DNA of 39,124 nt from a virus: the IMG/VR virus record IMGVR_UViG_3300020183_000200, positions 1 through 39,124 of that record; one strand, given 5' to 3'. Positions 1-39,124 of the stretch are shown one piece after another. How positions within the stretch are numbered: position 1 is the first letter of the stretch; each line of letters begins with the position of its first letter. The notes beneath the pieces were generated by a model. That model was not told the origin of the DNA. It saw only the letters and a program-made list of their open reading frames with translations, and made no database searches. Both the position numbers and the translations under genes were made by a program.

Positions 1-127
1 GCTGCCGTCGATCACGGTGTTGACCTGGGCTTGAAAGGCAGTGGAGAGATCACCACGGGCCTGGGCAGCCCCTTCAAGCTCGGTCTTGAAGTTCTGCGCG
101 GAGACCTTTGCGGCGTTGGCATAACCG
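1..127. repeat. 127-bp perfect direct repeat, copy 1 (contig-end overlap)
   Basis: Bases 1-127 are identical to 36410-36536. The first difference is base 128 (A) against 36537 (G). Beyond that the two tracts remain clearly related but carry scattered substitutions for roughly 570 bp. A perfect match of exactly 127 bases that begins at base 1 is what a de Bruijn assembler with k=127 leaves at a branching node, so this is most likely an assembly-graph overlap and not a biological terminal repeat. Confidence 0.9.
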
Positions 128-2160
128 ACTTGATTGCGCAGCTCGGCGTTCACATCGGCCTGCAGCTGGGCTTGCTGCTCCACCGAGCCAAACTCGGCCT
201 GAGCATTCAGGGCGATCAGCCGTTGCTGGCTGAGCTGATCACGCTGAGCGGCCTGCTGCTCCTGCAACAGCTGACTGCGGAGGTTGCCAAGGCCCAGCTC
301 TTCGGCGTTCGTCTGGCGAATCAGATCCAGGTTTTGCTGCGCCAGCGCCACCTGCTGCTGCGTTTCAGCGCTGCCCTTCTCGGCATTACGGGACTGTGCC
401 TGCAAAAGGGCGATGCGAGCTTCAATTTCAGCCCGCTGGCCGGCTGCTGCGTTCTTCTGCTGCTCAAACGCCAAAGCCGCCTGCTGACCTTGCTGCTCCG
501 TCACCAAAGCGCGGGCCTTGAGGTCAAACTCAGCCACGGTCTGGTTGAACTTGGCCTGCCCGTATTGCAGCTCTAGCGCCCGGCGCTGTTCGTCATTGGT
601 AGCGAGCTTCTGCGCTTGCGCTAGCTCCTGATCCAGCAGGCTCTTGATCGTGTCGCTGCGGCCGATGGCGGCATCAGCGCGGACCTTGTTGATCTGGCCA
701 ACGAGGTTGTATTCCTGTTGATAGACCCCCAAGCGCTTTTCCTGCGCTTGCAGATTCAGCTTGTCCGCAGACAAGGAGGCCAGCTTCTGATTGCGTACAT
801 TGGTCTCAGCCTGTTGCGCTGCGGTTGCACCTTTGATGGCAGCGGCATTGGCTTCAATTAGCTTTTTCTTGGATGAATCTGCTTCTTTTGTCAGATTCTT
901 TTGGCTACCGGTGGCATCATCAAGAGCTTTGCCGACTGCTGCCGCTGTTGCTGCACCCACGCCCAACGCAATGGCCACCTTGGCTGCATTGGCAGGGTTG
1001 AGGATGGTCTGCGCAATGGCAGCTGCGACAGCCAGCGCCTTCTGAGCCACTGCTGCTGCCTTGGTGGCATTGGCGATCAGGTAGAACGCCGCCGCAGCAC
1101 TACCCACACCGGCAAACACCTGCACCAAGGTCTTGGTGTTTTCTGCCGCAAACTGCAGCGAACCGGTCAACCCCTGCACCGATTCCGTAACGGTCGGGAG
1201 CAGGGTTTCACCTAGCTTGATCTGCAGCTCTTCCCACGCATTGGCCAGCTTCTGAAAGCTTTGGGCACTGGTCTCAACGCCACCGCTACCGGCGGTCAAT
1301 TCGTTAAGGCCCTTGGCAAAAGCAGGGAGAAACTCTTGAGCTGTCAGTTTCCCAGACTCAACCAACTTGACAAGCTGTTGTTGATTAATTCCAAGGCCTT
1401 GCGCTGCAGCTGCGAGCGCAATAGGTAGCCGCGAGCCTAGCTGTTCACGCAGCTCCTCAAAAGAAACAACGCCTTTTGAAGAAATCTGCTGCAAAGCCAA
1501 AAGGCTGCCGCTCACTGCATCACTGCTAAGGCCGAGGGCTTGGCCTGCTTTAGCGACAGCACCAAACACCTCTTGCTGTTCCTTCAGCGGGATGCCAGAA
1601 GCGCTGGCCGCAGCGGTGAAGCTACCAAAATCGTTGGACAGCTGCTTGTAGGAAAGGCCGAGCTGATCGGCTAAGCCTTTGGTGAACGCCAAGGCTTCAG
1701 CCGCGCCACCACTGCCCAAGGTGTTCTGCAGCTTGCGGGTAATTGATTCAAACTCCACCGCCGCTTGCACAGCATCCTTGATGCCAACAGCAAGACCAGC
1801 AAAGCCAACTGTTGCACCTACTGCTGCCGCTGCATCTTTTAGGCCAGAACCAACACTTGGTCCCAAACCACCACCAGAGCCTGCTTCAGCCTTTTGCCGT
1901 TCACGGGTGGCCTTGCTGATTTCTGTAGCGAGCTCTCGATACTTTCTGCTGCCGATCTCAACGAGGCGGATCTCCTGCTGCAGGCTGGTGATCCTGATGT
2001 CCAAGGCCGCCAGCGTGCCCTTGCTGGCTTTGGTGCCTAGCGCGTTCTCAATGCTGCGGCCGGCTTGCGTTGCTAGGCCCCGAACTTGCTCAATGCCAGC
2101 GCGGAAGGCTGTCGTGTCCAGCAGAACATCAAAGGTTGCCCGCCCGAGCGAATCCGCCAC
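1..2160 (-). CDS. Tape measure protein, allele 1 (continues at 36409-36266)
   Basis: Sets tail length and plugs the tail tube before DNA ejection. Translation from a GTG at 2160 (frame begins VADSLGRATFDVLL) stays open to base 1. A stop lies in frame upstream and no ATG is nearer, which decides the GTG start. Residues about 115-300 match the tape-measure N-terminal family TIGR02675, with the hallmark stretch around SFEELREQLGSRLP. A hydrophobic Ala-rich segment (about residues 340-430) and a long Gln/Ala/Glu coiled coil follow. Bases 1-127 are identical to 36410-36536; joining 1 to 36409 keeps the frame and gives a 767-residue protein ending at 36266. It follows the tail tube and completion genes, as expected. 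Function is secure; the completed 3' end is inferred from the circular join. Confidence 0.9.
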   Translation of the reverse strand, partial: MADSLGRATFDVLLDTTAFRAGIEQVRGLATQAGRSIENALGTKASKGTLAALDIRITSLQQEIRLVEIGSRKYRELATEISKATRERQKAEAGSGGGLGPSVGSGLKDAAAAVGATVGFAGLAVGIKDAVQAAVEFESITRKLQNTLGSGGAAEALAFTKGLADQLGLSYKQLSNDFGSFTAAASASGIPLKEQQEVFGAVAKAGQALGLSSDAVSGSLLALQQISSKGVVSFEELREQLGSRLPIALAAAAQGLGINQQQLVKLVESGKLTAQEFLPAFAKGLNELTAGSGGVETSAQSFQKLANAWEELQIKLGETLLPTVTESVQGLTGSLQFAAENTKTLVQVFAGVGSAAAAFYLIANATKAAAVAQKALAVAAAIAQTILNPANAAKVAIALGVGAATAAAVGKALDDATGSQKNLTKEADSSKKKLIEANAAAIKGATAAQQAETNVRNQKLASLSADKLNLQAQEKRLGVYQQEYNLVGQINKVRADAAIGRSDTIKSLLDQELAQAQKLATNDEQRRALELQYGQAKFNQTVAEFDLKARALVTEQQGQQAALAFEQQKNAAAGQRAEIEARIALLQAQSRNAEKGSAETQQQVALAQQNLDLIRQTNAEELGLGNLRSQLLQEQQAAQRDQLSQQRLIALNAQAEFGSVEQQAQLQADVNAELRNQVGYANAAKVSAQNFKTELEGAAQARGDLSTAFQAQVNTVIDGS

Positions 2161-2599: not shown

Positions 2600-2601
2600 G
2601 G

Positions 2602-2997
2602 CTACTCCTGCCGCACGGCATCAAGCACCACCACATGACCGACGTTGGCTTCCAGCAGCGCACCGATCCCGCCGCGTCCGTAGGCGCTGCGAGCCGCCAC
2701 CAGCGTGACGTTGTAGGTGCTGCCGTTGTCAATCTCCAGCGTGCCGGTCATGCCTTCCAGCACGTCGTCATCCAGCAGTTGCGGATCGGTGACGTAGCCC
2801 TCAAAGCGTGAGGTGCGCACGTCCACGCCTGCAAAGTTTTGGCCGATCGTGGCACCGATCTCCTTGACGAACACCCGATAGCTGGCGGGCGTGGTGTTGC
2901 CAACCACGTTGCCGGTGTACGGGTTCACGGTGGTGCCCGCTGCGGGAAGCTGAAAGGTCAACTCCCCGTTGCTGAAGCCATCCAGCGGGCTAACCAT
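2602..2997 (-). CDS. Head-closure/adaptor-like structural protein
   Basis: A 131-residue protein with mixed beta-strand character and no signal peptide or membrane segment. It reads like a small head-tail joining protein (head closure or stopper): residues about 30-95 alternate short strands with a conserved-looking FEGYVTDPQLL stretch. It lies between the tail-tube gene (15 bp upstream) and the gp10-like gene (3 bp downstream). Gene order supports a neck role, but the sequence alone does not separate head-closure from tail-terminator function. Confidence 0.55.
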   Translation of the reverse strand: MVSPLDGFSNGELTFQLPAAGTTVNPYTGNVVGNTTPASYRVFVKEIGATIGQNFAGVDVRTSRFEGYVTDPQLLDDDVLEGMTGTLEIDNGSTYNVTLVAARSAYGRGGIGALLEANVGHVVVLDAVRQE

Positions 2998-3011
2998 CGT
3001 TTACGTCAGGG

Positions 3012-4141: not shown

Positions 4142-4317
4142 GAGGCTAAATACTCATAAAGGCTACGTCTGATTCGGTCATAAAGTGCAGGTCTCATTTT
4201 TTTGAGTTTTGCAGGCTGGCTGACAAAAGCGACAAATGCTTCTGCAAAGGCTTCTCGGTCATTTGTGCCTGGGCGGCATCCACACCGCCTCCGCTGCTTC
4301 CTTCCGTCCCAGCGCAC
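4138..4317 (-). CDS. Short frame with a FAEAF-type C-terminal remnant
   Basis: A roughly 59-residue frame from a possible GTG at 4317. It overlaps the 3' end of the MuF gene by 59 bp in another frame. The part beyond MuF (residues about 20-59) contains EAFAEAFVAFVSQPAKLKK and a PALYDRIR tail. That resembles the conserved C-terminus of zincin-like or ADP-ribosyltransferase-like domains often fused to phage minor head proteins. No convincing start codon precedes this stretch. It may be an independent tiny gene or the remains of such a domain cut off by a frame change. Confidence 0.35.
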   Translation of the reverse strand: MRWDGRKQRRRCGCRPGTNDREAFAEAFVAFVSQPAKLKKMRPALYDRIRRSLYEYLAS

Positions 4318-6808: not shown

Positions 6809-7432
6809 CTACAGCCAGGCAGAATCCATCTGATCATCTGCGCTGTGCAGCTCAAAGCAACCCAGCTCGTGACCCATCCCAGCAGTGGCGCGAAGATCCA
6901 GCTTGAGATCGTCAGCAGTGATGCCGAGCTTTTCGCACACCTGGGGGATAGTGTCACCACTCTCAAGCAAGCGACGTGCGTGCATCCCGCGTTGCCGGAC
7001 GCTGCCGGGTGCCTTGAGCCAGAAGTTGTGGTCGCGGATGTAGTGCCGCCACTCGCCAAGGATAAAGGGCAGAGCGATGGTGCTGAACTTGAACCCTTTA
7101 GAGGCATCAAAACGGCGTACGGCTTTGAGCAGCCCAATCAACCCGAGGGAATAAAGGTCTTCCACTTCCACGCAGCGGTACTTGTGAAACTGCTGGTGAA
7201 TGATGGTCTTGAGCAGGGGGATGTGGCGCTGAACCAAGCGCTCTTCTTCCCGTCGCTTTTGCGGACAGGTCTCGTGATACAGCAGCGTGCGAGGCCTGGT
7301 GCTGCGCGGCTTCAGCGGTGCTGCAGGGCATGGCTTGAAAACTGGTGGCTGCCAAGGATCATGCAATCCCTGCTCAAGGTTAAAAGCAAGCTGCCCATCA
7401 GCATGACGGGCGCGGGATTTAAGGATGGCCAT
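6809..7432 (-). CDS. Sigma-70-like protein with regions 2-3 but no region 4
   Basis: A 207-residue protein. After a basic, Pro-rich N-terminus of about 60 residues comes a sigma region 2: RHIPLLKTIIHQQF (2.1), DLYSLGLIGLLKAVRRFD (2.2) and KGFKFSTIALPFILGEWRHY (2.3-2.4), then a region-3-like HNFWLKAPGSVRQRG. The remaining 50 residues contain a short HTH-like stretch (IPQVCEKLGITADDL) and no region 4, so no -35 recognition module is visible. T4 gp55, a phage late sigma, likewise lacks a normal region 4. The ATG at 7432 shares a base with the TerL stop; two in-frame GTG codons lie just upstream. It is probably a regulator of late transcription, and its position inside the packaging operon is unusual. 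Confidence 0.7.
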   Translation of the reverse strand: MAILKSRARHADGQLAFNLEQGLHDPWQPPVFKPCPAAPLKPRSTRPRTLLYHETCPQKRREEERLVQRHIPLLKTIIHQQFHKYRCVEVEDLYSLGLIGLLKAVRRFDASKGFKFSTIALPFILGEWRHYIRDHNFWLKAPGSVRQRGMHARRLLESGDTIPQVCEKLGITADDLKLDLRATAGMGHELGCFELHSADDQMDSAWL

Positions 7433-8829
7433 CACCACACAGCAGCTTGTCCGTAGCTAACAGAGGCAGACGTTGCAATTGCAGGCCTAGAGCGTAACCA
7501 GGCTAAGCCCTGCGATAGCGCATCCACTTGGTCATCGTGTGCGGCATTAGGGAAGGCTGCTGCTTCTTCAATGAGCAGACTGCCCCAGGTGCTGCGTTCA
7601 GGAAGGAAAACGTTGCCAGCTTCGATCATGGGGGAGATCGCTGCAGCGCGGCTGAACTTTCCGCCTTGGGGGTTGACGGCGATCAGGCCAGGGATTTTGC
7701 TCTTAAGCATGGAGATGACTGCTGGACCGTTTGCTTTGTCTTCAACGATGGTGGCAACGGGCTTGTAGCGGTTAAAGGTATTGACGATGGCGGGGATGGT
7801 TTCGGTGATGTCGAGGCGATCACGAATGCAGTCGAGCAAGTAGAAGCTGCTGCCTTTCTGGCCGATCACCAGACCCACCACATAGTCGGTGTTGGGACCA
7901 TCTTTGAAGGTGAGGTCCCAGGAGGTGATGATGCGCTCCAGCTGGGGCAGTTCGCGGTAGGGCTGCCACCAGGAGCGTTTGAACAGGCCACCGGCGGGTG
8001 GGGATGGGCGCTGTTGGAAAAGGGCGTTGAAGCCGTATTCACCGAGAACGCGGCGGCGATCTTGAAGGGCGTCGAGGTCGTAGCGCTCAGGGCAGAGTGG
8101 TTCGCCAGGCTGGCGCTGCAGGGGGTCGTTGTCTTCTGCAATGGCAGGCAGGTTGACAATGGTCCAGGAGCTGGCGTCTTCGGAGTTGAGGATGCGGCCT
8201 GCGAGGTCATCTTCGTGCCAGCGGGTCATGGTGAGCACGACAGCACCACCAGGCTCAAGGCGGGTGTAGAGATCGTCTCTGTACCAGTTCCAAACGCGCT
8301 CGCGGTAGGCCTCAGATTCAGCTTCTTCGCGGGATTTCGTTGGGTCGTCGATCAACACGATGGAAGCGCCAAGGCCTGTGATACCAGCGCCTACGCCTAC
8401 GGCACGCAGGCCACCACCTGCTGGGGTGTCCCATTGCTCAACAGCCTTGCGATCAGAAGCAATTTCAAATCGCGTCGCAGCGATGCGGCGTGCTTGACGG
8501 GAGAAAGTATTAGCAAGGGTTTGGGAGTAGGCGGCGATCACCACGCGCTGCGTGGGGTCCTGCTCAAGGCGGTAGACGGGATAACGGATGGTGCCCTGGT
8601 GAGATTTACCGTGACGTGGCGGGACGGTGACGATCAGGCGTTTAAGGGTGCCAACGGTGATGGCGTCGAGATGCTGGCGGATGAAGGCAAGGTGGGGCCA
8701 GTCCCAGTTGTCGTCAGGGGAGACCTGCTGAAGCCAGGTGTAAAAGGATTGAGGTTGGCGGGTGGTGGTGCCTTCGAGAAAGGCGGTAAGGGGTTCAGGT
8801 TTGCAGATGCCGGAGAGGAGGGAGGGCAT
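7432..8829 (-). CDS. terL: Terminase large subunit
   Basis: A 465-residue packaging motor and nuclease. The ATPase domain shows Walker A PPRHGKS (residues 70-76) and Walker B IVLIDDP (Asp161, Asp162), with a coupling motif around VVLTMTRWHEDD. The C-terminal RNase H-like nuclease has ITSWDLTFKDG (first acidic residue, about residue 300), VEDKANGP, and HDDQVDALSQ near the end. Length is normal for the family. It overlaps the TerS stop by one base and the sigma-like start by one base. A circularly permuted, headful-packaged genome would agree with the apparent circular map, but no pac site was identified. Confidence 0.93.
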   Translation of the reverse strand: MPSLLSGICKPEPLTAFLEGTTTRQPQSFYTWLQQVSPDDNWDWPHLAFIRQHLDAITVGTLKRLIVTVPPRHGKSHQGTIRYPVYRLEQDPTQRVVIAAYSQTLANTFSRQARRIAATRFEIASDRKAVEQWDTPAGGGLRAVGVGAGITGLGASIVLIDDPTKSREEAESEAYRERVWNWYRDDLYTRLEPGGAVVLTMTRWHEDDLAGRILNSEDASSWTIVNLPAIAEDNDPLQRQPGEPLCPERYDLDALQDRRRVLGEYGFNALFQQRPSPPAGGLFKRSWWQPYRELPQLERIITSWDLTFKDGPNTDYVVGLVIGQKGSSFYLLDCIRDRLDITETIPAIVNTFNRYKPVATIVEDKANGPAVISMLKSKIPGLIAVNPQGGKFSRAAAISPMIEAGNVFLPERSTWGSLLIEEAAAFPNAAHDDQVDALSQGLAWLRSRPAIATSASVSYGQAAVW

Positions 8830-14036: not shown

Positions 14037-15713
14037 ATGAAAAGCCCAGTCACGGCCTACAGCTACGAGCGCGTCAGCCAGCCTCAGCAAGCCAAGGGCC
14101 GAGGCCTTGGGCGCCAGTCTGATGCGGCAGCTGCTTGGGCCGTCAGCCACGGCCTGACGCTTGACACGAGCCTTCAGCTGAGCGATGCGGGCCGATCAGC
14201 CAGCAAAGGCCATCACCTCACCAAAGGCGCCTTGGGCCGCTTCCTGCAGCTGGCGCAGGGCGGGAAGCTCGGTGGCTCTCCAATCCTGCTTGTGGAGGCG
14301 ATCGACCGCCTCAGCCGCCAAGAGCCCCTCGACGCCATTGAAACGATCCTGACCGGGTTGGTGGGCAGCGGCGTGCGGATCATCACCTTGGAAGACGGTG
14401 CGGAGTACAGCCGGGAGACGCTGCGCAGCGACCCCACCAAGCTTTTGGTGCTGGTGGTAAAGATGCAGGCCGCCTACGAGTACAGCGCCCGGTTAGGGAT
14501 GCGGATTCGGGATAGCTGGGATAAGGCCCGCGAACAGATCCGCAATGGCACCATCGCCCGGCCAAGGCAGTTCTGCCCGGCCTGGTGCGATTGGGAGCCT
14601 AAGCAGGGCTACAGCCTCAATGCCAAGGCCGAGACAGCGCGGCTGATCATGCAGATGTTGCAGGACCAGGGGTCCTATGTCGTGGCCCAGCACCTCAACG
14701 GGATTGGGGTGCCGACGTTCAAGGGCAAACGGTGGACCCATGCCAATGTCCGCGAGGTGGCTACCAGCCCTGCCATCTACGGCGCATTAAGACTTAACAC
14801 CAAACCAGGCAATGGCAGCCCGGTGGAGATCTACGAGGGTCTGCTGCCTGCTGTGGTGACAAAAGCCGAGGCGCTGGCGATTCGGCAGCAGCTGGCCCAG
14901 CGTGCAAGGTCGGGTGCAGCAGGTCCGATCACCAACACCCGATGGATTGGCCAGCGATTAACCCATTGCGCCTGCGGCAAGCGGATGGGTTGCACCATTG
15001 GCGGCAGCCCCGGCAAACGGGTCTATTACCTGCGCTGTCGGCATCGCGAGAATGAGCGGCAGGGTTGCGCGAGGCCGGGAATGCTGCTGCAGGCGGCGAC
15101 CGCGCATCTGCTGACGCGGCTGGAGCGCCCGCAGCTTGAGCAGCTGATCGCCAGCTGCCAGCAATCCGACCAGCACTACAACCGTCAGGCGATGGTGGAT
15201 GCGGCCCAGCAACGCTGTGATGAGCTGCAGCTGCAACATAACAACACGCTCAAGGCCTACAAGGCAGCAGCACGCTCAGGTGTGGATCTGACGGCAGCGC
15301 TGCAAGTGCAGGGTGAGGTGGAGGCGGAACTGCGCGAAGCGCAGCAGGCATTGCGCGATGCGCAGCAGCTGCTGGCGCAGCTGGAGGGCGTGCAAGGTGC
15401 TACTGAGGCGCTGGAACCGGTACTGGAGCTGCAGCGGGCATTTGCCTTGGGGCTAGACACCAGCGAGCAGCGGCGAGCGGTGAACTTGGCGCTACGGAAG
15501 ATGGGTCTATCCATCACGGTGGACACCAGCACTGCCGAGATAGGCCTGGCCATTGGTGATGCACCCCCGCAGTGGCAGCCGATCCGGCAGCTGGACCGCT
15601 CGGCCCTGTATTGGGGCGACAAGGTACAAGAGGAAGCCGGGCTGGTGGTGGCTGGTCGGGAGGCGGATTTTGCCGCAGAACTGAGTCGCTGCGCAGGGCT
15701 TGAAATTACCTAG
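14037..15713 (+). CDS. int: Large serine recombinase (phage integrase)
   Basis: A 558-residue site-specific recombinase that would insert the phage genome at a host attB. The resolvase domain (1-150) begins AYSYERVSQPQQ with the nucleophile Ser14 and contains LLVEAIDRLSR and VRIITLEDGAEYS. The recombinase domain (about 170-260) has NAKAETARLIMQML and WTHANVREVATSPAIYG. A zinc ribbon (about 300-345: HCACGKRMGC ... CRHRE ... GCARP) and a coiled coil (about 385-470) complete the fold. The start lies one base after the inverted repeat that may be attP. No separate excisionase (recombination directionality factor) was recognised; one of the small plus-strand genes could supply it. Confidence 0.93.
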   Translation: MKSPVTAYSYERVSQPQQAKGRGLGRQSDAAAAWAVSHGLTLDTSLQLSDAGRSASKGHHLTKGALGRFLQLAQGGKLGGSPILLVEAIDRLSRQEPLDAIETILTGLVGSGVRIITLEDGAEYSRETLRSDPTKLLVLVVKMQAAYEYSARLGMRIRDSWDKAREQIRNGTIARPRQFCPAWCDWEPKQGYSLNAKAETARLIMQMLQDQGSYVVAQHLNGIGVPTFKGKRWTHANVREVATSPAIYGALRLNTKPGNGSPVEIYEGLLPAVVTKAEALAIRQQLAQRARSGAAGPITNTRWIGQRLTHCACGKRMGCTIGGSPGKRVYYLRCRHRENERQGCARPGMLLQAATAHLLTRLERPQLEQLIASCQQSDQHYNRQAMVDAAQQRCDELQLQHNNTLKAYKAAARSGVDLTAALQVQGEVEAELREAQQALRDAQQLLAQLEGVQGATEALEPVLELQRAFALGLDTSEQRRAVNLALRKMGLSITVDTSTAEIGLAIGDAPPQWQPIRQLDRSALYWGDKVQEEAGLVVAGREADFAAELSRCAGLEIT

Positions 15714-16544: not shown

Positions 16545-17276
16545 ATGCCGTCACCTGTTTCAGTGCCAGAGCCTGCGGGCTCCCCCTTGACCGCTGCCTT
16601 GGTGGCATTCCACCAAAACGTGGCCACCATCCATGAATCCAGCACCGCTCAATACGGTGCCTACGCTGACCTCAGCACAGTCCTAGGCGCGATCCTGCCG
16701 GCGCTCTCCAAGCACGGCATCCGTCTCTCCCAGACCTTTCAGCCTTGGGGTGATGACGGCACCGCCATGCTGCTGGTCACGAGCTTAAAGCACATTTCCG
16801 GCGAGGAGGAGTCCTCGCGGCTGCCGTTGGTGCGGCCTACCTCCAGCCGTGGCAATGCCGTTCATGACTGGGGTGGTGCCGTCACCTATCAACGCCGTTA
16901 CGCCATCCTCGCGATTCTTGGCCTGGCCGCTGGCATTAAGGATGACGACGGTGATGCTTTTAGCACCGCAGCTCCTAGCGCTAACTTAGGCCACAACAGC
17001 GCTAGCACGAACTTAAAAGCAGAGCTGCCTAAGGCCGGCAATGGTGTCAAAACGGGACCTGTCGCCGCTGGGCCTAGTGCCATCCCTGGTGACGAGCTGG
17101 AGCGCATCAAACGCGCAATCGTCAACCTCACCGCTGATGAGCGCTCGGCCTTGGTCGCTGCCTTCCGCAAGAAGTTCAAAACCCCAGACGGTCAAGGCAT
17201 TGCGGACTACATCAAAACCACCGAGCACGCCGATTTTCTGACCCTTCATTTAAGCCATGTTGCTGGAGTCAACTGA
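16545..17276 (+). CDS. erf: ERF-family single-strand annealing protein
   Basis: A 243-residue ERF superfamily recombinase, which anneals complementary single strands and helps circularise phage DNA. Diagnostic parts: AQYGAYADLSTVLGAILPAL (about 36-56), HGIRLSQTFQPWGDDG, and the block GGAVTYQRRYAILAILGLA then KDDDGD (about 110-136). A Ser/Ala/Asn-rich linker with internal GCGCTA motifs in its DNA precedes a helical C-terminus. It is expected to cooperate with the RecB-like nuclease (11207-12089) and RusA. The next gene starts 20 bp before its stop. Confidence 0.88.
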   Translation: MPSPVSVPEPAGSPLTAALVAFHQNVATIHESSTAQYGAYADLSTVLGAILPALSKHGIRLSQTFQPWGDDGTAMLLVTSLKHISGEEESSRLPLVRPTSSRGNAVHDWGGAVTYQRRYAILAILGLAAGIKDDDGDAFSTAAPSANLGHNSASTNLKAELPKAGNGVKTGPVAAGPSAIPGDELERIKRAIVNLTADERSALVAAFRKKFKTPDGQGIADYIKTTEHADFLTLHLSHVAGVN

Positions 17277-18789: not shown

Positions 18790-19241
18790 TGCGCTGCCAG
18801 CAATGCCGAGGCATTGATTTCAAGGTCATCGAATCCCGCCTCTTGCTCTCCGGTACACGCCGCCGCCGCTGGCGCTGCAACAACTGCGCCAATCGCTGGA
18901 CAACACGTCAACACGGTGCCAGCCCGCCGCGTGAGCGCCGGCTAATGAAGCCGCGTTTGCGTGGTGGCGTTCGCACCCTAACCAATGCCGAAGCGGCCAG
19001 CATCATGCTCTCGCCAGCCACCGTCCGTGAGCTGGCCAAGCAATACGACATGACGCACCAATCCATTTCCGCAATTAAGAGCGGGCGAAACTATCGTGAT
19101 GTCTTCGGCGCATTAGGCCTGAGCCGCAAAGGCTGTCACTCCTGTCAGCACTGGCGTAATGAGGGCTGCTCGTTTGATTTCCCTGAAGCTGGCGGAAGCT
19201 TCTCTAAACATTGCACGCTGTATGAGCCGCACGAACATTGA
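18786..19241 (+). CDS. Zinc ribbon-HTH-Cys cluster protein
   Basis: A 151-residue three-part protein. Residues 1-45 repeat the NrdR-like ribbon (MRCQQCRGIDFKVIESR ... RRRWRCNNCANRWTTRQ). Residues about 70-105 form a helix-turn-helix (SPATVRELAKQYDMTHQSIS then AIKSGRNYRDV) like the small HTH found in phage and homing-endonuclease DNA-binding modules. Residues about 115-148 hold a second Cys/His group (GCHSCQHWRNEGC ... KHCTLYEPHEH). An ATG three bases downstream is an equal start. It overlaps the sigma gene by 20 bp. Probably a DNA-binding regulator. Confidence 0.6.
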   Translation: MMRCQQCRGIDFKVIESRLLLSGTRRRRWRCNNCANRWTTRQHGASPPRERRLMKPRLRGGVRTLTNAEAASIMLSPATVRELAKQYDMTHQSISAIKSGRNYRDVFGALGLSRKGCHSCQHWRNEGCSFDFPEAGGSFSKHCTLYEPHEH

Positions 19242-20280
19242 CAGCTTTGGGCAGTTTCTCAATGATGCAGGACGCATCACTCTGCTCACCGCTGATGAAG
19301 AGATCTATCTCGGCAAGCGGGTGCAGGCCATGCAGGCTTTGAAATCCGAGAAGCCACGCGGACCCTACGGCAAGATTCAAACAGCTACCTTGCGGCGCGG
19401 CCAGCGTGCCAAAGAGCGGATGGTTAATGCCAACCTGCGGCTGGTCGTCAACATTGCTCGCAAGTATGCCGCTAAGAACCAGCACACGGGCTTGACTATT
19501 GACGACCTCGTGCAGGAAGGCTGCATCGGTCTGATGCGAGCGGTAGAGAAGTTTGACCCAACCCGTGGCTACAAGTTTTCCACTTATGCCTTTTGGTGGA
19601 TCAAGCAAGCCATGACGCGGTTTCTGAATCAACGCAGCCGCATGATCCGCCTGCCGCATCATGTGGCCGACAAAGCGCAGCAGCTCAGCAGGACGATGCA
19701 AGATGAGTCCATTCGGTTGGGGCGGGCGCCCACCCGCGAAGAGCTGGCGGTTGCGCTTAACATCAAACGCGAGGAGCTTGAGACGCTGATATGGCGGGGC
19801 GCACCGGTGCTGTCGCTTGACGCCGTGGTGACGGATGACTACTCCAGCGCCTTAATTTCAATAGTGGCAGACCCGGTGTCGCTGGAGCGGGACGACGATG
19901 ACATCCGCCAGCAGATCGCGCTCAACAGCCCGACGCTGGCGGAGTGCATTGCCCGCCTTACGGAGCGGGAGCGCTACGCCGTGATCCGCCACTTTGGGCT
20001 GGATGGCGCCGCACCGGACACCATGATACAGATCTCCAAGGTCTTCGGGCTCTCCAGAGAGCGGGTGCGCCAGATCGTCACCAAGGCTCAGCGCAAGCTG
20101 CGCTTCTACCTCAGTCAGGCGGTGGCGCCTCCGACTGAGGCATTATTGAATAGCCGTAAACGCGCAGCATCCACCGAAGCGGGAACGGTAGAGAAGCCGC
20201 TGTTTGCCCTGAAGCGAAAACTTGCGGAGGAGCTGGTGCGGGATCAGCAGCTTTTACCTGAGTTGGTAATAGGGCAATGA
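19222..20280 (+). CDS. RNA polymerase sigma-70 factor, full-length (group 1/2-like)
   Basis: A 352-residue sigma factor from ATG 19222. An upstream ATG at 19159 would add residues that overlap the previous gene, and MSRTNIDSFGQFLNDAG matches region 1.2, so the inner start is preferred. Region 2: RMVNANLRLVVNIARKYA, LTIDDLVQEGCIGLMRAVEK and FSTYAFWWIKQAMTRFLNQ. Region 3: GRAPTREELAVALNIKREEL. Region 4: LTERERYAVIRHFGLDG and LSRERVRQIVTKAQRKLR. It has the length and order of cyanobacterial group 2 factors and would redirect host core polymerase. The last 45 residues extend over an oppositely oriented gene. Confidence 0.85.
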   Translation: MSRTNIDSFGQFLNDAGRITLLTADEEIYLGKRVQAMQALKSEKPRGPYGKIQTATLRRGQRAKERMVNANLRLVVNIARKYAAKNQHTGLTIDDLVQEGCIGLMRAVEKFDPTRGYKFSTYAFWWIKQAMTRFLNQRSRMIRLPHHVADKAQQLSRTMQDESIRLGRAPTREELAVALNIKREELETLIWRGAPVLSLDAVVTDDYSSALISIVADPVSLERDDDDIRQQIALNSPTLAECIARLTERERYAVIRHFGLDGAAPDTMIQISKVFGLSRERVRQIVTKAQRKLRFYLSQAVAPPTEALLNSRKRAASTEAGTVEKPLFALKRKLAEELVRDQQLLPELVIGQ

Positions 20281-27037: not shown

Positions 27038-27493
27038 TCAGAACGTGCCGCCATCCACCACTTCCACCGAAATGGTGACAAAACCATTGCCGGCGTCCTT
27101 GATCCAGCTCAGGCTGCTGTTAAGGCGGATCACGCCATCGGTGCCGTCAGTGCCGTAGATGTAACCGGCGGTGCCGCCGCTCACGATCGCCACCTTCTCG
27201 TCAGTGTCGCTGTCGGGGATGTTGAGCGCTGTTTTGAAGCTGTTAAAGGTGATCTTCTTTTCTTTCTGGCCGCTGCTCTCGCTGGCATCGTGGATGAGGA
27301 TCAGATCCTCGGCGCCGCTGATTGCGCTGAGAGTGGTCAGGTCATCAACAGCAGGCACCACCGTCAGCTTGGTGGTGGCATTGGTGGCGACGTGAAGCGT
27401 TCCGCGATCGGTGGTGATGTGCGGCTCACCGGCCAACATCCCGGTGGTTGGCAGATTGGTCTTAAGACCCCGCTTGAGCTGGAGGCGTGCCAT
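27038..27493 (-). CDS. Tail-fibre module protein
   Basis: A 151-residue protein starting MARLQLKRGLKTNLPTTGML with AGEPHITTDRGTLHVATNA, again the 'KRG...LPTTG...GEPH.TTD.GTLHVA' attachment motif of phage fibres. The body has AISGAEDLILIHDASESSGQ, and the C-terminus reads SVEVVDGGTF. The last residues (VDGGTF) also close the neighbouring 27535-28200 protein, so both may end in the same interaction peptide. Confidence 0.6.
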   Translation of the reverse strand: MARLQLKRGLKTNLPTTGMLAGEPHITTDRGTLHVATNATTKLTVVPAVDDLTTLSAISGAEDLILIHDASESSGQKEKKITFNSFKTALNIPDSDTDEKVAIVSGGTAGYIYGTDGTDGVIRLNSSLSWIKDAGNGFVTISVEVVDGGTF

Positions 27494-30157: not shown

Positions 30158-31444
30158 CTAGTCAGGAATCAAGTAATGGGTGCTATAAAAGCTAAATAAC
30201 GGGCTGCCAGCAACCAACGGGCGATAGGAGTTGCTGACAAAATAGGTGGGATCAGTCGTAGGAAAGCCACTGACGTGTTCAAAGGCCAGTTCGAAACCCG
30301 GATTATTTGGCGGTGTGACTGCTTGGGTGATTCCGGCTTGGTCTTCGGCCAAGAGCCCACTCACATCGAGCAAGTCTTCCAACGGCTGAACATCGCTTGG
30401 GGTGTAGGAGGCAAAAGATCCAGGCACATTGGCTCCGAGCAAGCTGTAGCCCTGACAGCTCAGCCAGGCTGGATCCAGGGTACTCAGTTCGTGAACATTG
30501 CCATTTCGCAACACCCGCTGCCCAGTTGTAAGATTAACGCCGGCTATGTTATTAAGTTTTAAACGTGCCTCAAAGGGTTGCTTAGACTGGTTGAAAAAAT
30601 TAGGCGCTGCTACGTTTTTACCATCTAAGGCGCCAACTGAAATTAAATCAGGAGTTCCTCGGTCTCCGTCCGTATTAAGAGTCTGGGTGTAGGAGTAGGG
30701 GCCAAGCGATCCGCTGTGCAAGTTGCTCAGGTATGACCACGCGCTTTGCCCGCACGCTTTGAAAGGATGAGAATTTGGCAGGCTGGCACTGATAGCTTCT
30801 TTAAAGCCCGTGTAAGTTCCATTGCGGGTATATTCGTAAACTGCGCCTAGTGCAAGTACAGTTATATTGCTTAAAGAGCTGGTATAAAGAGAAGAGGTGC
30901 CGTGCTCAATGCTGCCATTACTCAAGTCTACGCTAACTGTTAGCAGGTCGTAGCTAGCCGAAGCCGCAAATGGGTCGACGCTGTTGCTGCTGGTCACTAG
31001 ACCAAATAAATCCGGGAAACTCTCAGGCTGTGGATGCACAAGCACAAAGAGCACTGTATAGCTGGCTTCAAACCTCGACGTGCGCAGCAGTGTGCAGTAA
31101 AGCTTGCCATCAATGACCTGCTCTGCAACTCGCACTGTTTCATTAATCCGCTGTCCATACCATTGTGTATCAAGAATAGTTTTTGTCATCCAGGTAGGAT
31201 ATTCGTTATTAACGTAATCTACTGCTGCAGCAATAAATCCAGGATCTTGATCCGAGGGAAGCGCTGGCGGGCTCAACTCCCACGGTGCAAACTCTGCAAC
31301 CTTTCCCTGGCTGCCGGTGTAAACCTTAACTGTTCGGACTATCTCGGAACCTGAGAACGGCTGGGTGACGAAATAAACCGGCTTAAGCTGAGGCCCGCCG
31401 CCGCGCCGTGCGCCGGGGCGATACCGTGCAACAGGCCTAACCAC
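30158..31444 (-). CDS. Large virion-like protein of unknown family
   Basis: A 428-residue soluble protein from a GTG at 31444. The N-terminus is basic and Pro/Gly-rich (VRPVARYRPGARRGGGPQLK). The rest is rich in Ser, Thr, Asn and Tyr with many predicted strands and no recognisable enzyme motif. Much of the gene uses more A/T-rich codons than its neighbours. It lies between tail-hub/minor-tail genes and the scaffold-like gene, so a virion or tail-associated role is plausible. I could not place it in a family. Confidence 0.5.
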   Translation of the reverse strand: MVRPVARYRPGARRGGGPQLKPVYFVTQPFSGSEIVRTVKVYTGSQGKVAEFAPWELSPPALPSDQDPGFIAAAVDYVNNEYPTWMTKTILDTQWYGQRINETVRVAEQVIDGKLYCTLLRTSRFEASYTVLFVLVHPQPESFPDLFGLVTSSNSVDPFAASASYDLLTVSVDLSNGSIEHGTSSLYTSSLSNITVLALGAVYEYTRNGTYTGFKEAISASLPNSHPFKACGQSAWSYLSNLHSGSLGPYSYTQTLNTDGDRGTPDLISVGALDGKNVAAPNFFNQSKQPFEARLKLNNIAGVNLTTGQRVLRNGNVHELSTLDPAWLSCQGYSLLGANVPGSFASYTPSDVQPLEDLLDVSGLLAEDQAGITQAVTPPNNPGFELAFEHVSGFPTTDPTYFVSNSYRPLVAGSPLFSFYSTHYLIPD

Positions 31445-32350: not shown

Positions 32351-35300
32351 TTACTCCACCGGGATGACGCTGGCCGCAGGCAGCACAAACCATGCGGTGC
32401 TGTTGATGCTGCCGAAAATCCAACTCTTGTTGGCAGCGGGGACTGGTGCGGGGTTGGGGTTGAGCACTGCGCTGGCGCTATAGACGTTGAAAAGGCCGGT
32501 GTTGTCGGGCGAAACGCCCATACGGACCTCGAAAACATGGAAGCCGTCAAACACCGATGCCTTAAAGAACGCCACTTCCCACACGCGGTAGATCGTGCCG
32601 GTGTTGGTGGCGCTGGTGTTGCCCTCCACGCGAACGCGGAAGGTGTTGGGGGTAGAGCGCACAAACACCTTTTGCATGGAGTCGTCGGTGGCGTTGATGA
32701 AGATCTTGGGAAGGGAAGGGTTGCCATTACCCAGCCCGGTGAATTGACTTGAACCGGCACCAAAGGTGATATAGCCGTTAGGGCTGAGCCAGAAGCTGGT
32801 GTAGGAAACGCCGTTGAAGAGGAACGGGAATGACATCCCCGTGACTTCTAGCGGAGTGTCATCGACGTTACCGTTGAAGACTTGCGTCCAGCCTGCTGGG
32901 GTTGAGGTAGTGACGCCGCTGCCGGCAAGAGGCACAGCGTCGCCAAAGGCGATGTCAAAGGCAAAGTTTTCCAGCTCCAGCACCACCTCAGGCGACAACG
33001 CCTGCACTGCGTCAAGCTGCAAACGCACCTGCAGTTGCTCGCTGTTCTCCAGTTCCAGCACCACCTCAGGCGACAACGCCTGCACTGCCTCCAGCTGCAA
33101 GCGCATCTGCAGATCCGGACTATCCATGAGGCGGTTGATGCCCAGCGGCACCGTGATCGCCTCCAGCTGTAGCCGCACTTGCAAGCTGGTCACGATGATC
33201 GGCTTAAACGGCAGTGCCAGCTCGATCGGCTCTAGCTCAGTTTCAAATACCTCTGATTCGTCATCCGGCAACGCATTGAGCAGGGCATTGATCGCTGCTT
33301 GATCGCTCACATCCACCGGGTCGATCACGGTGATGCTGTTAGCCGGCGGCTGCGGGCCATTCACCACTAACGCTGGTGGCGTTGGCAGCGCAGTAGTGTT
33401 AGGTGCCACGGGCGTCCAGCGCGGCCCGTTCACATCCCCGCCCGCCAGGCCCCAATAGAGGGCATCAGTGGAGACCATGCAGCTGTTGGCGTCAAACGCA
33501 AAGCTGGTGCCATTGAGCCGATACGTTGCCGTGATGCCATTGCTGCTAAGGTGAAATGGATGCAACGGATTGCTGGGCAGGATGCCAAGGCCGGTGGTCA
33601 CCTGCATGCCAAGCCGGTGACCGATCAGCAATTGGTTCTGTTCCATGGCATAACGGGCAGCCTCACTTACGGCCTCACCGTCGCTGATGGTGCCATCGTC
33701 GTTCACGATGTCATCCGAGAGGAACGGCACGCTAAATACTCGGCTGTTGTTGGGCCGTTGCTCTGGTTCCGGACCCACCTGAATCCTGCTGCCACCTTGG
33801 ATCACCACATCTGCGTTCTGATATGGAGCCAAGTAGTCAGGCACAGGCTTTTCTTTGCCCTCCTGCTGCACGTCGCGGGTGACCACCTCGAAATCTTCCA
33901 ATACCAGAGGGAAGAATTGGTTGATCAACGGCGCTGGATTGATTGATTGGCCGATGAGCTTGCTAGCAGCAGCACTGATTGCTTGCTGCCCCATCTGCGT
34001 CAGTCCATAAGCCACATAAGTGGTCTTCACTTCCCGCATCACATTCTCGCCGTACAGAAATTGTGTGCGGATCACAGAGGATATCTGCTCGCCTGAGGGG
34101 ATACTGCTCAGCTTGGTGTAATCCTTAATCCCACACCGTCCAAGCGCTTCAAGATAAGACATCGTCTCAGTGGCAACGTGCACTGTGACGCGGAAGGTTG
34201 GCAGCTTGGGGAGCAACACCACCCGGTATTTTGCGACAATGGGGGGAGTGTTGCTTAACGGATCATTAGCAGTAAGATTGGCGATTGCTGATTGAACCTC
34301 ATTGTCTGCCTGCTCTTCCTCTTTATCCGTCAGCGGCGGCGGATCAATTTTTTGGTACTCGTATTGATCCACCTTGCGGCTAGTGATCGGCGTGGTGGCA
34401 GCGCTATTGCCCTGTGCGCGTAGCTCAGAGATTCGTAACAGTGTGCCACTAACATTAGATCCAGCATTGAGCTGCGCCTGCAGACTATCTGCTGTATTCA
34501 GATAATCCTGCACCAGCTGGCTGTTGACCTTGACCGCAGCAGTGGTGGTCTCAGCTCTGCGCTCTAGCGTGCGATTGTCGGGCTCAGCCTTTTGCTCACT
34601 GGTGATCACCGTCTCAGTAATCGGGAAGCTTTTCGTGCTGCCGTTCTTCAAAGTGACCTTAACGGCTGTCTGGGTTGACATGCCGTTGTTGTCCCAGCTG
34701 GCCGTAAAGGCCCCCAGTGCTTTATTTTCAATATCAACGCCAGGGGCAAAAAGGGCTTGTGGCGTCAGTGCTTCTTGACCAATATGAACGCCAGGGGTGT
34801 AAATGGCTTGCGGCGGCTGCTCCTCTTCGATCTGCTTTGCCGTGCCGGTGCCAGTGGGATTCTCCGTAAAGTCCACCCCTCCGGTGTTGGGGTTGATGTC
34901 CACCACCTGCTCGAATGTCACCACTGGGCCATTGGTTGGCAGGTTGGCGTAGGGGATCGCCTCTAGCTCGTTCTGTGCATCGAGGTAGCCGACATGGCCG
35001 GCACTGGCCAGCATGTCTGAAAGCGTCTCGATGTAGTCCTCACAATAAAGGTCCGTGATTTGCTGGTTGATCGTCCAGGTGCCAAGCGATTTGACGGTGA
35101 TGCCGACGCGATCGCAAATCAGTGCCGCAGCTTCATGCAGGTCCATCGTTGGAGCAGTTCTCAGCTCACCACGGTTCAAGCCATCGAGCAGGTTGCTGCT
35201 GACCACCCCGCCGCCTTTGCCGCGCTCGTAGGCCAGATCATTGGCCAACTGCACCTGGGTTTGATTGCTAAGCGGATTGGCAAACGCCTGCGTCACCTTG

Positions 35301-36265: not shown

Positions 36266-39124
36266 TCACCTTGAGGTGCCGCTCACCACTGCTGCACTTG
36301 AGTTGCCCCGGCTGCTACCGCTGTTGTTGACGGTGACGTTGACGGTGGGCGGTCGGCTGGTGTTGGTGGCGATTTGGGAGAGGATGTCGTTCATGCGGGT
36401 AAACTGCTGGCTGCCGTCGATCACGGTGTTGACCTGGGCTTGAAAGGCAGTGGAGAGATCACCACGGGCCTGGGCAGCCCCTTCAAGCTCGGTCTTGAAG
36501 TTCTGCGCGGAGACCTTTGCGGCGTTGGCATAACCGGCTTGATTGCGCAGCTCGGCGTTCACATCGGCCTGCAGCTGGGCTTGCTGCTCCACCGAACCAA
36601 ACTCGGCCTGGGCGTTGAGGGCGATCAGCCGTTGCTGGCTGAGCTGCTCGCGCTGAGCGGCCTGCTGCTCCTGCAACAGCTGACTGCGGAGGTTGCCAAG
36701 ACCCAGCTCTTCGGCGTTCGTCTGCCGAATCAGGTCTAGGTTCTGCTGCGCCAGCGCCACCTGTTGCTGCGCTGCGGCATCCGGCTTTTCAGCCAGCGTC
36801 GATTGGGCTGACAACAGGGCAATCTGTGCCTCAATCTCAAGACGCTTTCCTGCTGCGGCGTTCTTCTGCTGCTCAAAGGCTAAGGCCGCCTGCTGACCCT
36901 GCTGTTCGGTGACCAGAGCGCGGGCCTTGAGGTCAAACTCAGCCACGGTCTGGTTGAACTTGTCCTGCCCGAACTGCAACTCCAGCGCCCGGCGTTGCGC
37001 GTCGTTGGTGGCGAGCTTCTGCGCTTGCGATAGCTCTTGATCCAGCAGGCTCTTGATCGTGTCGCTGCGGCCGATGGCGGCATCAGAGCGCACCTTGCTG
37101 ATCTGACCAATCAATCCAATCTCTTTGACATAGAGATCAAGGCGAGCCTCTTGGGCTTTGAGATTGGTTTTATCTACCTCAAGCGATCTCAGTTTTTCGT
37201 TGCGACTTGTTGCTTCCTGTTCATTCGCTTTTTCAGCTGCCTGCTGTTGAGCCTTTGCGGCAGCCTCTTGCTCTTTCGTTTGTTGTTTCTGGCCTGCAGC
37301 AGCCTCTGCGCTATTGGATTTGTTTTGCGCAGCAACTTCTTTGAGAATCCGCTTTTGGTTCTCTAGAGACTTGACCTGATCCTCATACTGTTTGGCAAGA
37401 CCTGGATCAAGAATGCGCCCCAAAGGCTTTCTCAGTTCTCCTTTCAAGCGGTTGATCTCGTAATCAATCGCGCTGGTCTGTGCTTCTATCTTGATATTAG
37501 CCTTAATTGAGTCAACTTGTTTCTGCGTCTCTGCGATGTCAGCATCCAGAGCCGTTGTGTCTACGCCTGGAGCGGAGAATGACTTTTGCTGCTGAAGCAG
37601 GAGTAGTTTCTTTTCAACCTCATCCAGCTCGTCGCCGTATGCTTTTAGCGCAGGAGTCAGCTTGCCAACGATTTGCGTACCATCTGGCACGTTAAACGCT
37701 ATATCACGGCCTTCAAGAGCGGCGATTTCGTTGCCAATCGCGCCAAGCTGAGCATTCAGCTCTTCTCCGTTTAACCCAGCACGCTTCAGAGCCTGCGCTT
37801 GCTCGCCAAGGGCAACAGCCTGTTGCTTCAGGCTTTCAACATTGGTCTGCTCGTTAACAACCTGACGGACGACGTTGGCACGTCTTTCGAGTTCTGCCAG
37901 TCGCTTCTCTGCAGCAGAGGTATCAAGTCCGTATTCTTTTTGGCGCTCAATCTCTGCACGTAGCGTCGTGATTGAAGTCTCAATGTCTGCGAATTGACTC
38001 TGAGCTGGCGTCAGGCTGATATTGTTAATCGTCTCGGCGATGCCAGACAGCGAGACGCCAATGGATGAAAAATTAGAGCTTGTGATCAGATTGCTGAAGG
38101 CGTTGCCGATTGCCTCTACGCCGCTACTGATGGTCTGACTAACGGTTTGCGCTGCACTCGCTGCTGCACCAGCATTGTTCTTCTGGTTTTCCAGAAACTG
38201 GTTGTACTTCGCCAGCTGGTCATTCAACAGCGGCTGCACTGCAGTCAACGCTTCAACTGAGCCAAACAGCACCGCGTTAGCGGTCGCGCTGCCTTGTGTC
38301 TTGGCTGCCACTTCCTGCAGGAAAGCACCTAAGCCTTTGGCCTGCAGGGCGGCACCGCTGAAGTCAATACCAAGCTGTTGGGCAAGATCGCTGGCCTCCT
38401 TGCTTGGCTTGAGGATGTTGCTGATCGCTTGGCGCAGGCCGGAGAACGTGGCCTCCACTGGTACACCTTGAGCAGTAGCAGCGGAGATGGCTGCATTCAG
38501 CTCTTCAATGCTGACGCCAGCCGCTGATGCAATCGGCGCAATCGTACCGATCCGAGCTGCGTACTGATCAACAACGATCTTGCCGTCGTTCTGCGTGGTT
38601 ATGAAGCCGTCAATGATCTTGGTGGCTTGCTGTGCGCTGAGCCCGTAAGCATTGAGCACGGACGTGGCGCCATCAGCCACGGTTTGAATGCTGGAGAAGC
38701 CACCCTTAGCGCCCTGAGCCGATGCCTTCAGGATGTCTGTGGCGTCTGCAGCATTGGCAAAACCAGCCGAGGCCACGTCGTAGGCGGCCTTGGTCAGCTC
38801 CAGCGTGGAGACGTTGGCTTTGAGGCCTGCGCTGACCAGCTTGAGGTTGTCGGTGAGCTTGACGGCATCCACCCCAAGGGTGCGAACCGCTGCGGCTGCA
38901 TCGTCAGCTTGCTTGATTTGATTGAACGCCTGCGCAGCTAGGGCCAGCGTTCCCAGTTGAGCGACGAGGCCGCCAATCGCTTGCCCTAAGCCTTGGATGC
39001 CAGATGGATTGAGCCTTTTTCCAAATGTATCTAGCGCACCATTGGCCAGATCTTGTTGCTTGACGTAGCGACCAAACTCATCGCGGAGACGCCCACTTGA
39101 GTCTCTAAACGTGTTAACCAGGCC
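36266..39124 (-). CDS. Tape measure protein, allele 2 (5' end missing)
   Basis: A 952-residue partial tape measure, open to the right edge, ending SGTSR. Residues from the edge to about 360 form a TP901/PhageMin_Tail-type domain (VSTLELTKAAYDVASAGFAN, GFSSIQTVADGATSVLNAYG, ISAATAQGVPVEATFSGLRQ). This is different from the TIGR02675-type domain of allele 1. The C-terminal coiled coil (bases 36410 to about 37110) is nearly the same as bases 1-700. It is longer than allele 1 (767 residues when completed), so virions using it should have longer tails. It may come from a co-existing phage variant. Confidence 0.85.
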   Translation of the reverse strand, partial: GLVNTFRDSSGRLRDEFGRYVKQQDLANGALDTFGKRLNPSGIQGLGQAIGGLVAQLGTLALAAQAFNQIKQADDAAAAVRTLGVDAVKLTDNLKLVSAGLKANVSTLELTKAAYDVASAGFANAADATDILKASAQGAKGGFSSIQTVADGATSVLNAYGLSAQQATKIIDGFITTQNDGKIVVDQYAARIGTIAPIASAAGVSIEELNAAISAATAQGVPVEATFSGLRQAISNILKPSKEASDLAQQLGIDFSGAALQAKGLGAFLQEVAAKTQGSATANAVLFGSVEALTAVQPLLNDQLAKYNQFLENQKNNAGAAASAAQTVSQTISSGVEAIGNAFSNLITSSNFSSIGVSLSGIAETINNISLTPAQSQFADIETSITTLRAEIERQKEYGLDTSAAEKRLAELERRANVVRQVVNEQTNVESLKQQAVALGEQAQALKRAGLNGEELNAQLGAIGNEIAALEGRDIAFNVPDGTQIVGKLTPALKAYGDELDEVEKKLLLLQQQKSFSAPGVDTTALDADIAETQKQVDSIKANIKIEAQTSAIDYEINRLKGELRKPLGRILDPGLAKQYEDQVKSLENQKRILKEVAAQNKSNSAEAAAGQKQQTKEQEAAAKAQQQAAEKANEQEATSRNEKLRSLEVDKTNLKAQEARLDLYVKEIGLIGQISKVRSDAAIGRSDTIKSLLDQELSQAQKLATNDAQRRALELQFGQDKFNQTVAEFDLKARALVTEQQGQQAALAFEQQKNAAAGKRLEIEAQIALLSAQSTLAEKPDAAAQQQVALAQQNLDLIRQTNAEELGLGNLRSQLLQEQQAAQREQLSQQRLIALNAQAEFGSVEQQAQLQADVNAELRNQAGYANAAKVSAQNFKTELEGAAQARGDLSTAFQAQVNTVIDGSQQFTRMNDILSQIATNTSRPPTVNVTVNNSGSSRGNSSAAVVSGTSR
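36410..36536. repeat. 127-bp perfect direct repeat, copy 2
   Basis: Identical to bases 1-127. It marks the point where the assembly can go either to allele 1 (base 128 onward) or allele 2 (base 36537 onward). Bases 36266-36409, encoding the last 47 residues of both proteins plus the stop, occur only once. Confidence 0.9.

Follow-up and report, generated by a model that had tools for sequence, protein, structure and literature searches.

How does a single virus record come to carry two tape measure proteins (TMPs) that share a C-terminal coiled coil and differ in their N-terminal parts? The question is raised by IMG/VR record IMGVR_UViG_3300020183_000200, a complete virus record that is classed as linear and has 39,124 bases; in its full length we refer to it as the window. 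At each of its ends a TMP-like open reading frame (ORF) runs off the record: on the left allele 1, with 720 of its 767 codons inside, and on the right allele 2, with 952 codons inside. The initial annotation, made from the window alone, located them correctly at 2160-1 and 39124-36266, both on the minus strand, and proposed that phages naturally exchange the heads of these proteins. Both ORFs appear to be tape measure proteins, judging by their place as the large gene directly before the distal-tail (Dit) and tail-tip (Tal) genes, by PHROG matches and by helical prediction. As we argue below, the locus is best explained as a mosaic TMP cassette at one syntenic position, the modules of which recombine in co-infections. 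To this explanation as a whole, including the steps of the proposed mechanism, we assign a probability of roughly 0.82.

The two heads belong to different families, as had been anticipated. The head of allele 1 matches PF20155 TMP_3 (E-value 3e-26, 92.6 bits, curated cut-off 41) and TIGR02675 (7e-15, 55.1 bits, cut-off 21.35), and that of allele 2 matches PF10145 PhageMin_Tail (4e-25, 89.2 bits, cut-off 33.2) and TIGR01760 tape_meas_TP901 (2e-22, 79.6 bits, cut-off 28.8). Alignment also bears out the shared C-terminal coil of about 240 residues, with 87% protein similarity extending back to residues 452/637. At the DNA level, bases 1-701 align without gaps to 36410-37110 at 89-90% identity, and no other repeat of comparable size is present within the window. 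The similarity had been described as fading gradually upstream; instead, it is stepwise and mosaic, being 100% at bases 1-127, approximately 92-98% up to 360, 53% at 361-420, 85-95% at 480-660 and at background from approximately 720. A complete copy of allele 1, found in a relative (locus L003), has 767 amino acids (aa), so that the visible part of allele 2 is indeed 185 aa longer. The real difference should be greater. An exact-sequence search for the 5' end of allele 2 returned locus L018 (3300021093) as its sole match; the L018 head is 87% identical to that of allele 2 and starts 27 codons ahead of the point at which the window copy is truncated (the L018 upstream genes share 82% DNA identity with those of the window). 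Given these extra codons and the 982-aa TMP of L019, full-length allele 2 is expected to have about 979 aa and so to exceed allele 1 by about 212.

Evidence for exchange comes from the relatives of the window phage. These were found by scans with two anchor genes, the 131-aa upstream gene g131 (31 loci) and the 249-aa Dit-position gene (28 loci), both of which are independent of the TMP head type. Wherever the sequence suffices, the order is major tail protein, g131, neck, TMP, Dit and Tal. Most of the other relatives carry a TMP_3 core, and the PhageMin heads of L018, L019, L020 and L046-L049 lie between homologous flanks; in L019 (3300035670), for example, a 982-aa PhageMin-type TMP sits amid homologous portal, protease, major tail, neck, Dit and Tal genes. 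A further case is L032, which has a TMP_3 core. Its upstream DNA is 95% and its Dit gene 94-95% identical to those of L033 and L034, in which an alpha leader precedes a PhageMin core, and its upstream region is 92-94% identical to that of L019 and L020, in which a beta leader does so. In other words, three architectures of 760, 843 and 982 aa (L032 compared with L033/L034 and L019) are found between flanks that are 92-95% identical. Across the group, flanks of same-core pairs have a median identity of 0.841 and those of different-core pairs one of 0.838. On the tree of upstream DNA (three genes) core type needs at least four changes, and a single PhageMin clade is rejected (approximately unbiased (AU) test, p 2e-9). 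The Dit tree requires at least six changes, which equals the mean for shuffled labels (6.0), and likewise rejects a single PhageMin clade (AU p 3e-10). Core type is thus unlinked to the flanks, and these data support the view that heads have been exchanged between phages by recombination rather than inherited by descent.

The relatives also reveal that there are more than the two alleles originally supposed. TMPs of this group of siphovirus-like phages follow a common plan, in which the first ~22 residues and the coil/C-terminus (~240 residues) are constant and a leader, a core and a spacer lie between them. At least five architectures occupy this one syntenic locus. The alpha leader, TMP_3 core and hydrophobic spacer H are combined in window allele 1 and L045 (765-767 aa); the same leader and core with an ALF spacer are found in L004-L015, L036, L040 and L043 (766-768 aa where complete), and L032 joins a beta-like leader to TMP_3 and ALF (760 aa). 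PhageMin cores occur with the alpha leader and spacer H in L028, L029, L033, L034 and L067 (843-844 aa where complete) or with the beta leader and beta spacer in allele 2, L018-L020 and L046-L049 (975-1000 aa where complete). The alpha leader of allele 1 is therefore found on both kinds of core (on PhageMin in L028/L029/L033/L034/L067), and so is spacer H, which is 77% identical between allele 1 and L033/L034. Since both leader kinds and spacer H are seen on both cores, the leader, core and spacer must have recombined with one another. Within the group, cores are 67-80% (TMP_3) or 63-100% (PhageMin) identical to their own kind, and TMP_3-type proteins keep a length of 760-768 aa despite their different spacers.

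As to where the crossovers took place, the coil proposed by the initial annotation is indeed an exchange zone, but not the only one. Allele 1 is identical to allele 2 at bases 1-127 and to the PhageMin-type L018 over 114 coil bases (window 556-669), at which allele 2 differs. Three-sequence permutation tests reject a single history for the coil region, with p 0.0024 when allele 1 is placed between allele 2 and L018 and p <5e-5 for several further trios. Together with the near-identical tracts joining different heads, they identify the coil as a zone of exchange. Further exchange borders lie between leader and core, between core and spacer and on the neck side. On this last side, the 97-99% identity of allele 1 to L065/L067 (alpha leader, PhageMin core) is confined to the neck gene and the TMP start; further upstream it is 74-95%.

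The neck gene itself seems to be drawn into the exchange. In all six beta-leader loci the neck protein starts M/V-K/D-V-x-V-x-F, and in every alpha, delta and gamma locus where the neck is complete it starts x-x-I-E-I/V/L. The beta label needs one change on the neck tree (0/500 shuffles were as low; branch support is low) and about four on the upstream tree. A contact between neck and leader is a better guess than linkage alone, because the neck N-terminus is the part of that protein farthest from the TMP gene.

It is tempting to propose how such a cassette might work. Co-infecting phages would recombine within short conserved islands that border each module. The presumed contacts of the TMP are the head-tail connector at its N-terminus and the Dit/Tal complex at its C-terminus. 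Both extremities, on the neck side and on the Dit side, would be kept because each contacts a fixed partner; the constancy of the distal-tail side, suggested earlier, agrees with the C-terminus and the Dit/Tal genes staying in place. The most likely motor would be the ERF-type annealing recombinase encoded in the window, as enzymes of this kind would tolerate diverged sequence; with DNA of 78% identity, the Erf of phage D3 is roughly as efficient a recombinase as Red-beta (PMC3945230). The exchanged middle may set both the tail length (through TMPs of 767, ~844 or ~979 aa) and the number of hydrophobic segments acting in ejection. In other phages the length of the tail is tied to that of the TMP: in mycobacteriophage TM4, a TMP with 114 aa fewer gives tails ~20 nm shorter (PMC1796659), and a 95-aa difference in the TMP of satellite PLE11 corresponds to a 10-nm difference in tails (PMC12987554). 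At 1.5 A per residue, the three length classes would have tails of ~115, 127 and 147 nm; that is, the additional 77 or ~212 aa are predicted to make tails ~12 and 32 nm longer than the shortest. In hydropathy profiles the H types, allele 1 among them, have a second hydrophobic region (residues 344-414) that the ALF and beta types lack, so that ejection is predicted to differ accordingly. Exchange probably persists because the middle is the part on which host inner-membrane partners and anti-tape-measure defences act. Single TMP changes in lambda and Bas14 alter the inner-membrane partner or SNIPE sensitivity (PMC13190303), and Rta, a satellite protein of V. cholerae, has its effect through the TMP of ICP1 (PMC12987554); pressures of the SNIPE or Rta kind could favour exchange.

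Several points weigh against this explanation. The inner branches of both the Dit and the upstream trees are weak, and the number of independent lineages is modest (~20). The evidence comes from assembled contigs, not reads, and the record ends ~27 codons inside allele 2. The link between ERF and exchange is circumstantial, and the covariation of neck and leader could reflect linkage instead of contact. Structure models of low confidence (mean pLDDT about 50) contribute nothing on function. Scans of 84,980 genomes yielded no prophage of the group. Finally, the changes of tail length and of ejection are predictions.

The alternatives turn largely on how the two ends of the record came about. 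The exact repeat between them begins at record base 1, is 127 bp long and has its first mismatch at base 128. JGI metagenomes are assembled by metaSPAdes at k = 33, 55, 77, 99 and 127 (e.g. PMC10604447); because 127 is the largest of these k-mers, we infer that the contig returned to a graph vertex already within it. Two IMG/VR contigs independent of the window support this. L003 (IMGVR_UViG_3300020222_000324) reads from the left end of the window through allele 1 and on into bases 36409-29229, with 6 mismatches in 10,733 bases, and L017 (3300020603) follows the same path from allele 1 to the tail genes of the window with 1 mismatch in 8,436. Given this continuity, the genome is closed on itself with the 767-aa allele 1 belonging to the window phage, and allele 2 (36537-39124) is a 2.6-kb branch from a second, co-assembled strain. 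Two other contigs break nearby: L025 ends at window 2622 and L050 at window 2792, both being 99.9% identical to the window head genes and both stopping just short of the neck/TMP genes. In the sample of L050 (3300020109), contig L067 picks up ~360 bases beyond that point; its neck shares 98-99% identity with the window neck, and its TMP head is a different one. More generally, a record classed as linear with both ends in one gene may be a closed genome plus a strain branch.

Such a branch might of course come from a different species that merely shares a conserved stretch, in which case the window would be an assembly chimera and would record no exchange in its own population. Assemblers are able to join such branches, only 127 bases are exactly common, and the downstream continuation of allele 2 is inferred from the assembler's path. 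Nonetheless, the alleles are ~96% identical over 360 bases, compared with mostly 65-90% to other relatives there, which suggests that allele 2 is from a close relative or was recently exchanged. Moreover, independent contigs, in which the join in the window plays no part, record the same exchange. We regard the chimera as unlikely, although it is the most serious of the alternatives.

Another possibility is that nothing was exchanged and one ancestral head diverged so fast that profile models now see two families. This touches on the kinship of the two cores, which the initial annotation called unrelated. By every curated cut-off TMP_3 and PhageMin_Tail are distinct families, but "unrelated" is too strong: a comparison by hhalign of core profiles built from 30 and 73 sequences gave a single 57-residue alignment (score 32.2, E-value 6e-4, probability 28%), whereas the maximum in 30 column-shuffled controls was 23.3. 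With shallower profiles the probability was 7%, and sub-threshold cross-matches of each core to the other's Pfam model are in different registers. AlphaFold2 models of the two heads (mean pLDDT 51 and 49) are too poor to decide the matter, PDB fold searches with them gave nothing below 1e-3, and in BFVD the TMP_3 head matched other phage tape measures. The cores are probably remote cousins, a common origin being likely, not proven. This ~60-residue motif and the cross-matches are what rapid divergence would have in its favour. However, flanks 92-95% identical carry both kinds of core, the members of which are 67-80% (TMP_3) or 63-100% (PhageMin) identical within their kind, and either core can have the same leader or spacer. 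There are also phages with PhageMin cores 57-65% identical in which none of the flanking genes searched showed similarity. Rapid divergence in place of exchange is thus very improbable.

The same comparisons hint at the source of the modules. Among additional loci with a PhageMin core, 67 of 75 share only the core with the group in the flanks covered (cores mostly 57-65% identical). TMP_3 cores outside the group (57-66%) are mostly accompanied by a recognisable Dit gene, 34-51% identical. The PhageMin core of cyanophages MED4-117 and MED4-184 is 55-58% identical to that of allele 2, and that of KBS-S-2A ~27%; in all three the TMP core alone matched, the search having found nothing similar for coil, neck or Dit. 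Most simply, TMP_3 would be the resident head, with PhageMin heads imported from a wide pool including MED4-117-like cyanophages.

The remaining two alternatives hardly survive. If the record were circular and base 1 were joined in frame to 39124, there would be a single tape measure of 1672 aa, inside which the coil is duplicated. In favour of this, the two open ORFs continue into each other in frame over the joint (1 in 3 by chance), and the coil is repeated. However, L003 and L017, which lead from allele 1 through the stop codon into Dit and match nearly perfectly, rule out such a duplication; full-length relatives have 760-768, 843-844 or 975-1000 aa and one core each, and the 127-bp overlap to be expected from a de Bruijn loop is missing at the right end. 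Expressed and silent head cassettes in one genome (phase-variable switching) would fit both alleles being in one record, yet they are scarcely credible, since the loop accounts for the second copy and a family search of G008 and G009, relatives of 37-38 kb, found one core only.

Returning to the mosaic cassette, we may speculate about what keeps its variants together. The TMP middle might be a balanced, serotype-like polymorphism, in which interchangeable ejection modules are near linkage equilibrium, the neck N-terminus and leader are exchanged together, and rare heads are selected by inner-membrane partners and anti-TMP defences. This extension is a tentative one, and we consider it rather less probable than its opposite. 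In any case, the locus provides a natural set of chimeras with the same neck side, the same tip side and a different middle, with or without an extra hydrophobic region. It makes testable which part of a TMP sets the length, picks the inner-membrane partner or is recognised by SNIPE or Rta. The positions of all these elements in the window are collected in Table 1.

Table 1. Elements of the TMP locus and related features in the window
Feature	Position	Strand	Remarks
TMP allele 1	1..2160	-	alpha leader, TMP_3 core, hydrophobic spacer, shared coil; 3' end cut by record end
Constant N-terminal 22 residues and alpha leader (residues 1-92)	1885..2160	-	allele 1
TMP_3 / TIGR02675 core (residues 127-330)	1171..1782	-	family matches
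Hydrophobic spacer H (residues 346-412)	925..1125	-	allele 1
Shared coiled coil and C-terminal region	1..805	-	allele 1 copy
TMP allele 2	36266..39124	-	PhageMin_Tail core behind a beta leader, followed by long spacer and shared coil; ~27 codons missing at the 5' end
Beta leader (part)	38951..39124	-	allele 2
PhageMin_Tail / TP901 core	38054..38932	-	allele 2
Beta spacer (~240 aa, without strong hydrophobic segment)	37292..38020	-	allele 2
Shared coiled coil and C-terminal region	36266..37216	-	allele 2 copy
Neck / tail-completion-like protein, 135 aa	2192..2599	-	N-terminus covaries with TMP leader type
Conserved tail/neck gene, 131 aa (g131)	2602..2997	-	locus anchor
Major tail protein-like gene, 161 aa	3012..3497	-	syntenic upstream flank
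Distal-tail (Dit-position) gene, 249 aa	35515..36264	-	syntenic downstream flank
Tail-tip gene (Tal position), 1054 aa	32351..35515	-	syntenic downstream flank
ERF-family single-strand annealing recombinase	16545..17276	+	PF04404 E 1e-14; candidate exchange motor
127-bp exact repeat, first copy	1..127	.	extreme end of record; graph vertex closing the genome loop
127-bp vertex, second copy	36410..36536	.	point where alleles 1 and 2 converge

Some properties of the surrounding genes are worth pointing out. The gene order at 2192-3497 is unusual in that the major tail protein-like gene comes ahead of the neck/tail-completion-like gene, and no tail assembly chaperone pair was recognised between these genes and the TMP. 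The Dit protein had no match in 50,697 phage records. The Tal-position protein has 1054 aa in the window and ~800-840 in relatives, the similarity mostly ending near residue 827; its extra part holds a 69-bp direct repeat (91%; 32966-33034 and 33044-33112). In L067 and L065 the TMP and Dit are practically identical and the Tal genes clearly different, which implies that the tail tip is exchanged independently of the TMP. The 428-aa product of window 30158-31444 shares 28-35% identity with its syntenic counterparts, compared with 75-84% for its neighbours g238 and g235, and appears to be a second hypervariable gene of the tail/fibre region. The protease/minor head gene at 4259-5284 (341 aa) has 345 aa or 548-881 aa in relatives, and the L016 match to it is interrupted by a large insertion past residue ~274; this head gene thus carries a large optional insertion. 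As for lifestyle, a large serine recombinase/integrase at 14037-15713 (PF07508, phrog_95 5e-49) suggests a temperate phage. There is no tRNA in the window. Two sigma-factor-like proteins are encoded in this 39-kb phage, at 6809-7438 and 19159-20280 (PHROG sigma factor 3e-23; Pfam sigma-70 regions 1.2-4), and 27038-27493 has a sub-threshold match to Mtd_N, the N-terminal domain of the major tropism determinant (2.4e-5, 24.6 bits against 26.3).

Phage mosaicism is established for genes, domains and tail fibres. For TMPs the situation has been less clear. A 2023 survey placed them among the protein classes with a sequence mosaic signal and confirmed no genuine recent TMP mosaicism, partly because coiled coils mislead sequence comparison (PMC10684548). 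Like the cases in that survey, our locus involves a sequence fragment common to otherwise different proteins; here, however, the modules are clearly delimited, the tracts have been mapped and the flanks hardly differ, so that it looks like recent TMP mosaicism of the kind that the survey could not confirm. Evolution by repeat units (PMC3271669) is similar in that TMP length evolves and sets tail length, but it proceeds by repeat gain and loss, whereas here whole domains of different families are replaced. The motifs of the TM4 TMP (PMC1796659) likewise represent an accessory module inside a TMP, although an optional, inserted one, whereas in our group the core is exchanged. PLE11 with Rta (PMC12987554) and SNIPE (PMC13190303) also present the TMP as an anti-phage target, with an alternative TMP evading one factor. 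Those alternative TMPs are satellite-encoded or point mutants; ours form a natural domain-exchange series at one phage locus. In the dissection of the TP901-1 TMP (PMC5099701), too, the middle part was found to set length. That study relied on laboratory deletions, whereas here nature keeps both ends and swaps the middle.

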